From contig NZ_LZRN01000029.1 of the NCBI RefSeq assembly GCF_001678675.1, positions 1-51,565 of the forward strand: a stretch of DNA of 51,565 nt. The letters run 5' to 3'. The notes beneath the pieces are model-generated. The model did not search any database. It worked only from the letters and a program-made list of their open reading frames with translations, and was not told where the DNA came from. Below, in pieces: positions 38,729 through 42,603 of this stretch (positions are counted from its first letter, which is position 1; every line of letters begins with the position of its first letter). Both the position numbers and the translations under genes were made by a program. This DNA is from Gelidibacter algens (GTDB taxonomy: Bacteria > Bacteroidota > Bacteroidia > Flavobacteriales > Flavobacteriaceae).

Positions 38729-41418
38729 TTAAAACTGATATTCTAATCTTAAAAGAACGAATCGTGGCAAGAGTTTGTATTCTCTAGTTGAGCTGCCGAT
38801 ATCGCTAATTGAGACATTTCTAAAAATTTTTGTATTAAAAAGATTTTTACCAGTTATGCCTACAGATAATTTGTTTTTCTTGAGCTGATAAGTGGAGTCA
38901 AAATCTAAAAAATAATAGGTGTTGTCGTCATTCTCTAAATTGCCAAAAGAATAACGTTCAAATTGCAATTGCGCATTAAATTTATCATTGAAAACAAAAC
39001 TCAAATCTAAGAAGCTGATGTTGTCTGTAAAAGAAGTAGTGCTTGTGGTTTTAATTTCATTAGAAGTCCATTTGGTACCAAGGTGGTAATTAAACATACC
39101 TCTGAAACTAGATCTTAACTCTAGACCATAATTGTAATTATGAGATATTACTGTTCTTAAATCTAAATTGTTGACGCTGTTTTTAAACTCACTTTTAATA
39201 AAGCCCAAATCTACTTTTAAGTTAGAGGACATAAACTTGAAATAATAATCTAATTTAGAATTAAAAGTAATAAACTCACGATCTCTTATAATTGTTTTAT
39301 TAGTAAGTGTAAAATTTTGGTCAATAATGGTATTAGTTGAAAAGAAGTCGTGGTTTTTACTGTAAAGCAAAAACGTATTTGCAAAAAAGACGATCGCTCC
39401 AATTGCCTAATTGATAATTTAGCAAAGCACTTGATGCGTCCAATTGATTAAGATCACCTGTGCCAGCCGAAAATGAGCGGAAACCAATTAAGACAAATTT
39501 GTTATAAACATCTAAAATTTTTGCGTTTGTTGTATTGTAACTGTAGCTCGTTATTATTTTATTTTTGTCATCTATTTTCCAGTCGAGACCAATACCTGGA
39601 TTTACAAAAAAAGGATTTTGTTTAGTTTTATTGTCTAATTCTTCTAATCGATTAAATAGCTGATGAAGATCTACCTTCCCTGTAAGGGAAAAATCTCCAA
39701 GTTTATAGCGATATTTACTTTTTAAGTACAAATCGCTGACAATGTATCTGGCTTCGTTTTGAAAACCTTTTGGGTTGTTAAGGTTATACTTGTCTTCTAA
39801 AAGCGAAAATTTTGTCCTTAATTGATCTTTTCTATATTCATTACCTATCTGCAGCTCCAATAGATTTCCATTTGTTTTTCTATCCAGTAAATGAGCATTA
39901 AAACCAAAAAACTGCATTTGGTTGCTGCTCTTTTGCTTTACATTATTTATAGTTTCTGAATCTTCAAATAAATCTTGAAAATAAAATTGATTGACTCTAT
40001 AGTTTTGAGGTGTTTTTTCGTGAATGAAACGACCAGTTAACAAAAAGACTTTAGTGTCCTTAAATTTATTGGTATAATTAATTTTTTGATCGAACAATGT
40101 GTTTTGATGCTGCAGATTTTCGATAGTAGAATTACCATTGAACAACAAACTAGAACCATCATTATAATCCCCACTGTTAAACTTTGTAGTGGCTTCTATC
40201 ATTTTAATTTTAGATATGTTGTAAGTGAGATCTAATTTACCAAAGGCAACTCTGTTCTTATTGCGTACTTTATAAATTTCTGTATTTGTAAAGCTGGTGT
40301 TATTGACATTGACAATATCTATACTGTTTCTAAAAAAATCATTTTCGTCCCAATTAAAAAAACCTAATGTTTTAATTTTTAGTTTTTCAGTTGGATTAAA
40401 AATGGCATTCAGAGAAACTAGTTCAGCATTGTTAAAATTGGTTCTGCTCCGCTTAAAGTTTAAATTTTCAAAAGAGAGATCTATCAAATCAGTAACTTTT
40501 TGATTGTCGCCTATAGTTCCAGGTTCATTAAAACGAAACGATTCAATGAGCTGTTGTATGTCTCCTGTGGCATCATAGCCAATACTATTAAGATTGGTCA
40601 AAAAGTAGTACTTGTCCTTTTTGCCAAAATTCATAAGGTTGCCTTTTATTTGATAGAAGTTATCATTACCAATACCCATTTCGGCATTACCAAACCAAAT
40701 ACGTTTGAATTTTTCATCGAGCTTTAAATTTAGGGCAACCTTATTACTTTCTTCTATATCCTTTAATAATCTGTTGTTGGAGTAACGTTGAAGTATTTCC
40801 ACCTCTTCAATAGGGTAAGCAGGCATGTTTTTTGAGAGTATTTTATAGCCCTTTTCAAAAAGGTCATCTCCGTCTATCATAAGTTTTTCGATTTCTTGAT
40901 TGCCAACTTTTATAGTGCCTTCACTATTAATGCTAAGTCCAGGGATTTTTTTCAATAACTCTTCTACGGTTTGCTCAGTCCCGTTTGTAAAGAATTTAGT
41001 TTTAAAATTGATGGTGTCATTTTTTTTTGAAATAGGACTTTCTGACACAATAATAACTTCATCTAAATTTGTAAGGCTTTCTTCTAAAAGCACATCGAAT
41101 ATAAATTACTTTTTGGTTTTTTTTTATTTCAAAAGAAAAAGTCTGGGTTTTGAAACCTAAAGAAGAAAAGGAAAGTTTAAAAAGTCCAGTGTTATCAGTA
41201 AATAGTTCATACGTACCATTTTCACTAGAAAGAGAATAATTTAGAACATAAGAATTTGTACTATCCTTTAGCAATATATTAGCCCCTAAAATTGGTGAGT
41301 TGTCATTTTGGATTATTGTACCTCTGATCTGAGTTTGAGAAGAGCACATTAAACCAATACATAAAAAGAGAATTACATAAACTAATCTTTCTTTTTTTCT
41401 ACTCTTCTTCCCATTCAT
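38729..41418 (-). pseudogene. TonB-receptor-like outer-membrane barrel, two frameshifts
   Basis: Three frames join as one gene. Frame 1 (41418-41059) codes a signal peptide and a carboxypeptidase-regulatory-like domain (IRGTIIQNDNSPILGANI...). Frame 2 (to 39357) codes the plug (VEELLKKIPGLSINSEGTIKVGNQ) and most of the barrel. Frame 3 (39370-38729) codes the last strands, ending in a terminal Phe (LRLEYQF). Skipping one base at 41097 restores KVIYIDVLLEESLTNLDE, and one T of a six-base run (39383-39388) restores WSDRLFANTFLLYSKN, giving 895 residues. As read it is not functional. The family imports or exports large substrates through the outer membrane. It follows the GLPGLI gene with a 20 bp overlap. 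Confidence 0.85.
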
Positions 41419-42164
41419 ATTTTAGTTCAAATCCTTGTCTCTTGTATGGCTCAACACTACGAATATCGGCTTCCCTTCCTAATTTTGCCATGGCATATTT
41501 TAGCATTAATTCATTCTCTCTCTGTTTTAGTTCAACATAATCTTTAATTGATAATGATTTTCCGTTCCCTTTGTTTGAATCAATGATTTTATCTACATCA
41601 ATATTGTCATTTATTTTTACTTGAATAGCGGAAGATTTTATTTGCCCAGTTTCATCTTGAAATTCAAGAATTCCCCCGGGTAAACCGAATAATTTCCAAG
41701 GGCCACACCATGAAGGTATGTCTTTGGTAAACCAAGCAATATAAGTTCTCCCTCTAAAATTACCTTTTGCTTTTTGACAATCAAAGCTATTGATGGTTTT
41801 GCTTTCTTTTACAAGTTCCCATTTTATTTTTGGAATACTTTCTTCAATAAGATAGGGTGTTGTTGCTACTGTACCTTGTGATTTAAGAGTTCTGGTATTA
41901 AGTGAAGCAACATAGAACTCTTTTACATTTAAATCTATAATTATTTTGTTTGAATCCTTATTAGAATCTTTTTTTTTATTCATCTTTTGTGCTATTAGTC
42001 TCTAAATAAATGGACTTTTTATTGTCGAAGTATAGAGTCCATTGCCTTTCAACAGGAACACCTAAATTAAGTGTTTCATTGTAGACAATAACTCCTGATG
42101 TTTGTCCTAGGGCGAAAGTTGTGAATAGAACAACAACTGGAAGAAATAGATGAGAAATTTTCAT
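41399..42164 (-). pseudogene. GLPGLI-family exported protein, frameshifted
   Basis: Frame 1 (42164-41976) codes a signal peptide (cleavage near TFALGQ) and about 40 mature residues ending STKDE and a TAA stop. Frame 2 (from 41983) codes the rest, including the family motif in WKLFGLPGGILEFQDETG. Removing one T before a nine-base A run (41970-41979) joins them as KDEKKKDSNKDS, giving 254 residues, the usual GLPGLI length. GLPGLI proteins are exported Bacteroidetes proteins of unknown role, often next to TonB-type receptors. Here it sits between the peptide gene and the barrel gene. The ATGAATAA overlap also allows reinitiation, but the second part alone would lack a signal peptide. Confidence 0.8.
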
Positions 42165-42181
42165 GGATGATATTTGATTAA

Positions 42182-42210
42182 ACCAAGATCATTTCTGAAA
42201 TGATCTTGGT
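42182..42210 (-). terminator. Strong hairpin between peptide and GLPGLI genes
   Basis: A 13 bp perfect stem ACCAAGATCATTT / AAATGATCTTGGT with loop CTG. On the minus strand it lies 9 bp past the peptide stop and is followed by only a short U stretch, so it may end some transcripts or protect the peptide mRNA. Confidence 0.65.
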
Positions 42211-42219
42211 GTAAAATTA

Positions 42220-42435
42220 TTACTCAGCAATTGTAAGAACAGCAGTACCACTACAACCTGATTCACCAGTATAAACACTTCCGTGTAAAGTTCTAGTTCC
42301 GTCGCTGTGACGAGTTTCAACTATGATGAAGCAAGGGCCATCCTCATCATTGGATGGGATCTCATTGTTTATAGTACTGGTAAACCCTGTGCCAAACACA
42401 AAAAAGAAAGCTAACATTAAAAATAGATTTTTCAT
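42220..42435 (-). CDS. 71-residue exported two-cysteine peptide
   Basis: A small protein with a signal peptide (hydrophobic core LFLMLAFFFVFGTGF, residues 4-18; cleavage near residue 20) and a mature part of about 50 residues. Two cysteines (Cys35, Cys61) could form one disulfide; the central stretch is polar (ETRHSDGTRTLHG). I do not recognise a family. It is the first gene of the leftward accessory operon; a 13 bp hairpin separates it from the GLPGLI gene. The layout, with a small exported protein first, a hairpin and then envelope proteins, resembles a highly expressed secreted product followed by its handling machinery. That is inference. Confidence 0.7.
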   Translation of the reverse strand: MKNLFLMLAFFFVFGTGFTSTINNEIPSNDEDGPCFIIVETRHSDGTRTLHGSVYTGESGCSGTAVLTIAE

Positions 42436-42457
42436 AATTTTCTTGATTTTAAAGCCC

Positions 42458-42489
42458 GATAAATAGGCCTGATTAATAAATTATGGCAA
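42458..42489 (-). promoter_or_regulatory. Candidate promoter of the peptide operon
   Basis: On the minus strand TTG (42487-42489), a 21 bp spacer and TATTTATC (42458-42465), which has two mismatches to TAnnTTTG. The TTG lies inside the innermost TGGCAAAG box, so a factor bound there would touch the promoter. The start codon follows at 42435. Confidence 0.4.
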
Positions 42490-42603
42490 AGTATTGGCAA
42501 AGAATTTTTGGCAAGGCGATCAGATGGCAAAGTAAAATAAAAATAAACCAGTACTGGTTTTGGAATTAATTCCTATCAAAATACTTATTTTGAGCCTTTG
42601 CCA
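42484..42603. promoter_or_regulatory. Array of TGGCAAAG boxes with a 16 bp palindrome
   Basis: TGGCAAAG occurs at 42484-42491, 42495-42502 and 42525-42532, and TGGCAAGG at 42509-42516; the inverted form CTTTGCCA is at 42596-42603. Between them lies the perfect palindrome AAACCAGTACTGGTTT (42545-42560). The region is non-coding, upstream of the peptide operon on one side and hemH on the other. This is the pattern of a binding site array. The rest of the 417 bp gap is AT-rich and holds nothing else that I can support apart from the hemH box. Confidence 0.7.

Follow-up and report, generated by a model that had tools for sequence, protein, structure and literature searches.

Many members of the Flavobacteriaceae carry a three-gene unit, which encodes a small exported peptide, a GLPGLI protein and a TonB-type outer-membrane barrel. 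A decayed version of this unit lies on contig NZ_LZRN01000029.1 of Gelidibacter algens, within the stretch of 51,565 bp analysed here (the window). Comparison of relatives shows that the mature peptide and the GLPGLI protein are exchanged together, as one cassette, while the signal sequence before them stays constant and the barrel after them nearly so. The unit may be an undescribed peptide export system of the family. We assign about an even chance to a reading in which cognate GLPGLI proteins deliver hypervariable mini-proteins to the barrel, which exports or displays them. A preliminary description of the window had proposed the peptide as either cargo or ligand of an export or uptake system; co-variation and mosaic loci favour cargo, as far as sequences can tell.

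Relatives were collected with the 578-residue barrel piece of the window, which identified 74 loci (cited below by L numbers) in a named genome collection. This query matches 31 of 397 genomes of the family at E<=1e-80, its own genome included, and 8 of 345 genomes in a sample of the phylum at E<=1e-60, one of the eight lying outside the family. Addition of 36 fetched stretches and the window, and removal of 14 duplicates, gave 97 loci for comparison. A GLPGLI open reading frame (ORF) precedes the barrel in all 97, as judged by a hidden Markov model built from the set itself. The small exported ORF that the preliminary description led one to expect before such pairs is indeed present in relatives: a crude detector finds it in 73 of 97 loci, against 7/86 for reverse-strand controls in the same stretch and 12/67 for controls downstream of the barrel. 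One of the 73 (L052) is the wrong ORF, and the true peptide there is broken. Among the 24 misses, four loci lack room, and 11 of the other 20 hold a peptide, part of one or a broken remnant when inspected by eye. By the detector, the order peptide–GLPGLI–barrel occurs in 49 of the 97 loci, two peptides in nine and more than one GLPGLI gene in 20. No other neighbour recurs, the most frequent being found in 4/81 loci downstream and 4/71 upstream. Many barrel ORFs of about 714 residues are not broken genes; their frames are open upstream, hence non-ATG starts. The 73 curated peptides considered below differ from the 73 detector matches by the removal of three ORFs with ATT starts and the addition of three found by eye. 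Similarities were computed for 68 loci, after the window, L053 and L172 were dropped for broken or cut barrels and two more for GLPGLI length. Alignments were made from 57 listed references, with 56 GLPGLI proteins and with 35 peptides plus that of the window, hand-chosen as alignable.

Mature peptides scarcely align across the 68 loci (mean normalised similarity 0.02). The corresponding means are 0.32 for the signal sequence, 0.19 for GLPGLI, 0.28 for the N-terminal domain of the barrel protein, 0.66 for its plug and 0.55–0.58 for the barrel. The mature peptide co-varies with the adjacent GLPGLI protein, more closely than with the barrel or with its own signal sequence, and the signal sequence co-varies with the barrel. 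For mature peptide and adjacent GLPGLI, given the barrel, their partial rank correlation is 0.31, a value reached in 0/300 permutations; with the barrel-proximal GLPGLI protein the correlation is lower, at 0.23. The mature peptide and its own signal sequence, given GLPGLI, correlate at 0.08 (8/300 permutations), and the signal sequence and barrel, given the mature peptide, at 0.46 (0/300). Where mature peptides are related, the adjacent GLPGLI proteins are also related in 27 of 34 pairs. Where barrels are more than 0.8 similar, the mature peptides are unrelated in 104 of 118 pairs.

Mosaic loci place the boundaries of the exchange. L057 and L109 are two Maribacter loci at the same site. Their 100-bp windows are mostly 94–100% identical in the upstream flank (2.4 kb), in the leader and in the codons of the signal sequence. 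From the end of the signal sequence identity drops to 0.35–0.64 across the peptide, the gap, GLPGLI and the first domain of the barrel. It climbs unevenly over the plug (0.61–0.87) and returns to 94–100% in the remaining barrel. The loci diverge again about 0.4 kb past the barrel, and downstream they share a flank of just 367 bp (99%). Six same-site pairs with both flanks shared were scored: four are replaced (L057/L109, L060/L065, L062/L076 and L079/L080) and two keep their cassette (L075/L077 and L085/L089). Eleven further pairs of this kind were left unscored, one member having no intact trio or called peptide. In 76 pairs from 17 loci, DNA identity is 0.71–1.0 through codon 20 and at most 0.49 beyond; these pairs were chosen for similar signals and unrelated mature parts, so that the contrast is built in, and what is learned is where, and how sharply, identity drops. 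The 30 bp before the start are dissimilar in this ungapped comparison (0.27–0.53). A Flavobacterium plasmid carries an array in which a single barrel is accompanied by three peptides, a hairpin, two GLPGLI genes and then a further peptide. The signals of its four peptides, all annotated as hypothetical, are 90–100% identical and their mature parts 19–40%; the two GLPGLI proteins are 72% identical.

By eye, L257 and L259, from two genomes of one genus, lie between the same neighbour genes. They share the signal and differ in peptide and GLPGLI, and both units precede another barrel subfamily.

The peptides share a cysteine pattern. After residue 20, two cysteines occur in 49 of the 73 curated peptides, four in 16, six in one and an odd number in seven. 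Cysteine makes up 3.3% of mature peptide residues; the corresponding values are 0.8% for GLPGLI and 0.1% for the barrels. In the alignment of 36 peptides the first cysteine is invariant, and a turn glycine and the second cysteine are each present in at least 90%. This pattern suggests disulfide bonds. The core of the window peptide is nearly identical to that of the L050 peptide, for which a structure was predicted. The model shows a beta hairpin (residues 56–63 and 69–77) between Cys 56 and Cys 82, preceded by a signal helix and a linker without order; it is weak overall (predicted local distance difference test, pLDDT, 64; predicted template modelling score 0.31), with a block pLDDT of 77–84 at the beta hairpin. 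No Pfam or NCBIfam family matches more than one of the 36 peptides at E<=0.01. The best E values (Pfam 2.1e-4, DUF6520 0.0023, NCBIfam 4.6e-4) concern single peptides; the window peptide has no NCBIfam match and one Pfam match below cut-off. As a query against 299 genomes it retrieves, besides itself, four weak matches (E 6e-4 to 0.01); viral contigs yield none. A simple search finds a lipobox-like pattern in 0/73 peptides.

The gap after the peptide gene is structured. It folds beyond mononucleotide shuffles with a mean z of -5.5, and 65 of 68 loci, the window included, lie below -2; leader sequences, taken as control, give a mean z of -0.1, with 5/66 below -2. A perfect stem of at least 8 bp is found in the gap of 33/68 loci, against 18/340 shuffles. 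Hairpin sequences differ between loci, so that it is the structure itself that is kept. The preliminary description had suggested that the hairpin allows more peptide than machinery. Its place after the peptide gene and its recurrence in 65 of 68 loci support this putative effect on expression.

To our knowledge, GLPGLI proteins have no assigned role, and Pfam describes the domain as of 'unknown function'. The L050 GLPGLI protein scores 144.8 bits for TIGR01200 (cut-off 50), and its structure model has a pLDDT of 86.7. The top Foldseek match to this model is the N-domain of PNGF-II (4.5e-9, template modelling (TM) score 0.52), followed by ependymin-related proteins, LolA3, RseB, LolA and LprG at about 1e-4 to 1e-3; LolA3 and RseB have a Foldseek probability of 1.00 at E about 1e-4. 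RseB and LolA are periplasmic carriers of peptides, lipids or lipoproteins. Since the model resembles their fold, GLPGLI may be a periplasmic carrier of its cognate peptide. The CarboxypepD_reg-like domain PF13715 scores above cut-off in the barrels of L047 and L104 and in the window barrel piece, which thus have an N-terminal domain of the Oar type. A loose TonB-box-like pattern, counted without a chance control, occurs in 83 of 89 barrels. No Pfam plug matches the L047 or L104 barrel at E<=0.001.

Among characterized proteins, Oar offers the closest guide to transport. According to PMC6434023, Oar of Myxococcus xanthus is required for TonB-dependent secretion of PopC, and this cargo builds up in the periplasm before release. 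Oar and the barrel of the unit both have a CarboxypepD_reg-type domain ahead of the plug. PopC, unlike the peptides, is a protease, and a GLPGLI partner, a hypervariable peptide and cassette exchange are absent from the portions of PMC6434023 that were available. By this analogy, outward passage through the constant barrel with GLPGLI as supplier is proposed. The steps would be as follows. (i) A mini-protein exported by a Sec-type route would be produced in larger amount than the rest, the hairpin possibly protecting the upstream message or lowering read-through. (ii) In the periplasm it would fold into a small domain, probably closed by disulfides between the conserved cysteines. (iii) A cognate LolA/RseB-like GLPGLI protein, which co-varies with it, would carry it across the periplasm. 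(iv) The nearly constant, Oar-like CarboxypepD_reg/plug/barrel protein would pass it to the surface or the medium, by analogy with Oar and PopC. Cassette turnover suggests that the peptides act outside the cell, perhaps in competition or recognition. A bolder form of this proposal is tentative, and we hold it possible rather than probable: a large undescribed secretion system of the Flavobacteriaceae, in which TonB-powered constant barrels would export disulfide mini-proteins of an open-ended repertoire. Each mini-protein would have its own GLPGLI protein as LolA-like carrier or as immunity partner, exchange of cassettes at the signal-peptide boundary would diversify the repertoire, and its use would lie in competition or kin recognition.

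Several observations weigh against export by a constant barrel. The permutation tests leave shared ancestry in the correlations, and GLPGLI and the barrel are themselves correlated when the peptide is given (0.20, 1/300 permutations). The replacement in L057/L109 takes in the first domain of the barrel and part of the plug, so that the constant part is less than the whole barrel. No trace of a peptide is seen in nine of the 93 loci with room for one, including three loci of the genus, and among 16 distant GLPGLI/barrel pairs of the genus 11 are without one; the pair can exist alone. The mature peptides are acidic (mean charge -5.3; 64/73 net negative), unlike most pore-forming antimicrobial peptides. 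The likeness of GLPGLI to LolA is one of fold only, with TM-scores of 0.24–0.42 on the length of the model, and ependymin-related proteins score equally. PF14905 (OMP_b-brl_3) reaches 18.8 and 22.1 bits in the L047 and L104 barrels, below the gathering cut-off of 27. The presence of peptide outside the cell and its transport are both predictions.

Uptake is the strongest of the alternatives, although we consider it unlikely. The mini-protein would leave the cell otherwise and bind a scarce nutrient or partner; the barrel would re-import the complex, with GLPGLI as periplasmic receiver. Most TonB-type barrels import, as the abstract of PMC6434023 states. The mature peptide and barrel, given GLPGLI, correlate weakly (0.14, 1/300 permutations), as a ligand–receptor pair might, which counts against cargo. 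A receptor should follow its ligand, yet the barrel stays nearly constant across unrelated peptides, and the plasmid places one barrel beside four different ones. No metal-type motif common to the peptide cores was seen by eye, and no export gene recurs next to the unit. Display is less probable still: the peptide would stay on or in the barrel at the surface, where it would act as a rapidly varying decoy or antigen towards phages, grazers or hosts. Hypervariable, acidic, exported peptides and cassette exchange at a fixed site would suit this role; it leaves a carrier-like GLPGLI that varies with the peptide unexplained, and 0/5 proteins match PADLOC anti-phage defence models at E<=0.01. It is improbable that the peptide remains untransported in the periplasm, as a rapidly evolving subunit of GLPGLI or as its partner in folding: this reading agrees with the co-variation and with pairs that lack a peptide, but the hairpin suggests more peptide than GLPGLI, two peptides can precede one GLPGLI gene, and same-site replacement would be unusual for a subunit.

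The proposed export of exchanged cargo by a constant barrel has partial parallels. In polymorphic toxin and bacteriocin loci the trafficking parts are constant, and an effector is exchanged together with its cognate partner. The unit too has constant parts and an exchanged peptide and partner. Any toxicity of its peptides is hypothetical; they are acidic, and no protein of the unit matches a known toxin or immunity family. Slam, or type 11, secretion uses a dedicated outer-membrane protein beside diverse small cargo genes. Here an outer-membrane barrel likewise adjoins diverse small peptide genes; DUF560 is absent from the Pfam matches of the two intact barrels inspected (L047 and L104), which have a TonB-type architecture instead. 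GLPGLI genes (TIGR01200/PF09697) beside TonB-type receptors are familiar in Bacteroidota, and those of the unit score above the family cut-off and overlap or abut the barrel gene. PMC9603813, in its available part, reports changes in GLPGLI expression and gives no function; the peptide, the hairpin and cassette behaviour do not appear there. Among the titles listed from openly licensed papers none concerns such a system; as evidence of novelty this is weak. With a cognate exported peptide, GLPGLI proteins acquire a testable role. If export holds, another TonB-type barrel would join those that move protein out of the cell, and it would bring a dedicated carrier and a cargo library diversified in nature. 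The sharp boundary at the end of the signal sequence shows how a single locus can renew its exported repertoire.

The peptide is not confined to one barrel clade. All eight matches to the L047 peptide in 299 genomes precede a GLPGLI/barrel pair, four of them with other barrel subfamilies, and a peptide that always travels without the pair is not what is seen. Peptides also accompany five of the 16 distant pairs of the genus; these have two cysteines and look helical by eye. The peptide thus belongs to several clades of the pair and not to all, being found with other subfamilies and missing elsewhere. One of the five distant pairs with a peptide lies in the same genome as the window and represents a second type of unit, with other two-cysteine peptides and another barrel clade (L198, G000:C50:1-4600); it is intact, with open frames and two tandem peptides. 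With the L198 barrel as query, 14 of 20 further loci have a peptide of the second type (19 of 25 with the five initial ones), and a hairpin lies in the gap of 12 of these 19.

The window copy itself is acquired and probably inactive. Its features are listed below.

Table 1. Features of the decayed unit in the window.
Feature	Coordinates	Strand	Remarks
Exported two-Cys peptide gene, 71 residues, intact	42220..42435	-	Signal sequence, short linker, C...DG...C core
Hairpin between peptide and GLPGLI genes	42182..42210	-	13-bp perfect stem, 3-nt loop
GLPGLI gene, piece 1 (signal sequence and N-terminus)	41976..42164	-	Frame change near 9-A run
GLPGLI gene, piece 2, with GLPGLI region	41399..41983	-	TIGR01200, E=1e-35
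Barrel gene, piece 1 (signal sequence and CarboxypepD_reg-like domain)	41059..41418	-	PF13715 match
Barrel gene, piece 2 (plug, assigned by position, and first barrel part)	39357..41093	-	
Barrel gene, piece 3 (last barrel part)	38729..39370	-	
Upstream box array, four TTTGCCA/TTGCCA boxes	42484..42531	.	Before peptide gene

The unit runs from 42435 to 38729, with all genes on the minus strand. The peptide, with its signal-like N-terminus, the hairpin, the GLPGLI protein (123.6 bits for TIGR01200, curated cut-off 50) and the box array are as the preliminary description had them. It was also right about a regulatory-like domain at the barrel start (PF13715, 42.2 bits, cut-off 32.2), the common direction and the overlap of the last two genes (41399-41418, also present in intact relatives); it had treated as whole a GLPGLI gene that frame changes divide in two and a barrel gene divided in three. 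The peptide gene alone is intact. Assembly errors, with an intact unit beneath, are a less likely alternative: the genome is a draft of 140 contigs, and one break sits at a 9-A run. Against this, the flanking araC and hemH align full length with their sister genes, yet three breaks fall within about 2.6 kb, and barrel frames are also interrupted in L052, L053, L105 and L108 of the 97 loci.

These flanking genes, araC before the unit and hemH after it, lie on the plus strand. They are adjacent without the operon, about 90–120 bp apart, in 8/8 other species of the genus, and the unit (about 4.1 kb) is therefore an acquired insertion. The preliminary description had placed it between the AraC regulator, next to hemA, and hemH; these neighbours are coincidental, and a link to AraC or haem genes is ruled out at this site, the operon standing between araC and hemH in this genome only. 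No close second copy was found in the genus, where the best other barrels are 42–45% identical (3/8 other genomes). A phage collection gave no match to the unit. Plasmid carriage is rare (2/72,556 plasmid records, 41% identity), and small circular plasmids do not explain short contigs (terminal overlap in 0/7).

Minus-strand boxes stand at 42484, 42495 and 42525 (TTTGCCA) and 42509 (TTGCCA). Counting both strands, the whole window of 51,565 bp holds 33 copies of TTTGCCA, with about 0.03 expected per 50 bp. Upstream box arrays are found in 11/67 loci against 3.2 expected, with repeat units that differ between loci. TTTGCC repeats also precede the peptide gene in L072, which is otherwise unlike the window locus. 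Known RNA elements are absent from the window at gathering scores, and 15 loci yield a single Flavo-1, away from the operon. Folded 5' leaders were dropped as a candidate feature, the leader sequence being shared and structure support weak. The conserved leaders, GGTCG...GCTCAAGACCT...GGAGC and GTATTGCAAAAGTAATACACCTCG, cross genera (L071, L073, L085, L089, L106, L038 and L063; also L080, L081, L083, L084 and L092). In L049 the unit lies on a 4.8-kb contig, both ends of which appear by eye to be an inverted repeat, perhaps an insertion sequence on each side. A repeat, ACGCAAC...CGTTRGC or CGTTRCC, adjoins some copies of the unit (L038:50 and 4514; L040:5995; L104:6487 and 8703) and resembles the spacers of a gene-cassette array.

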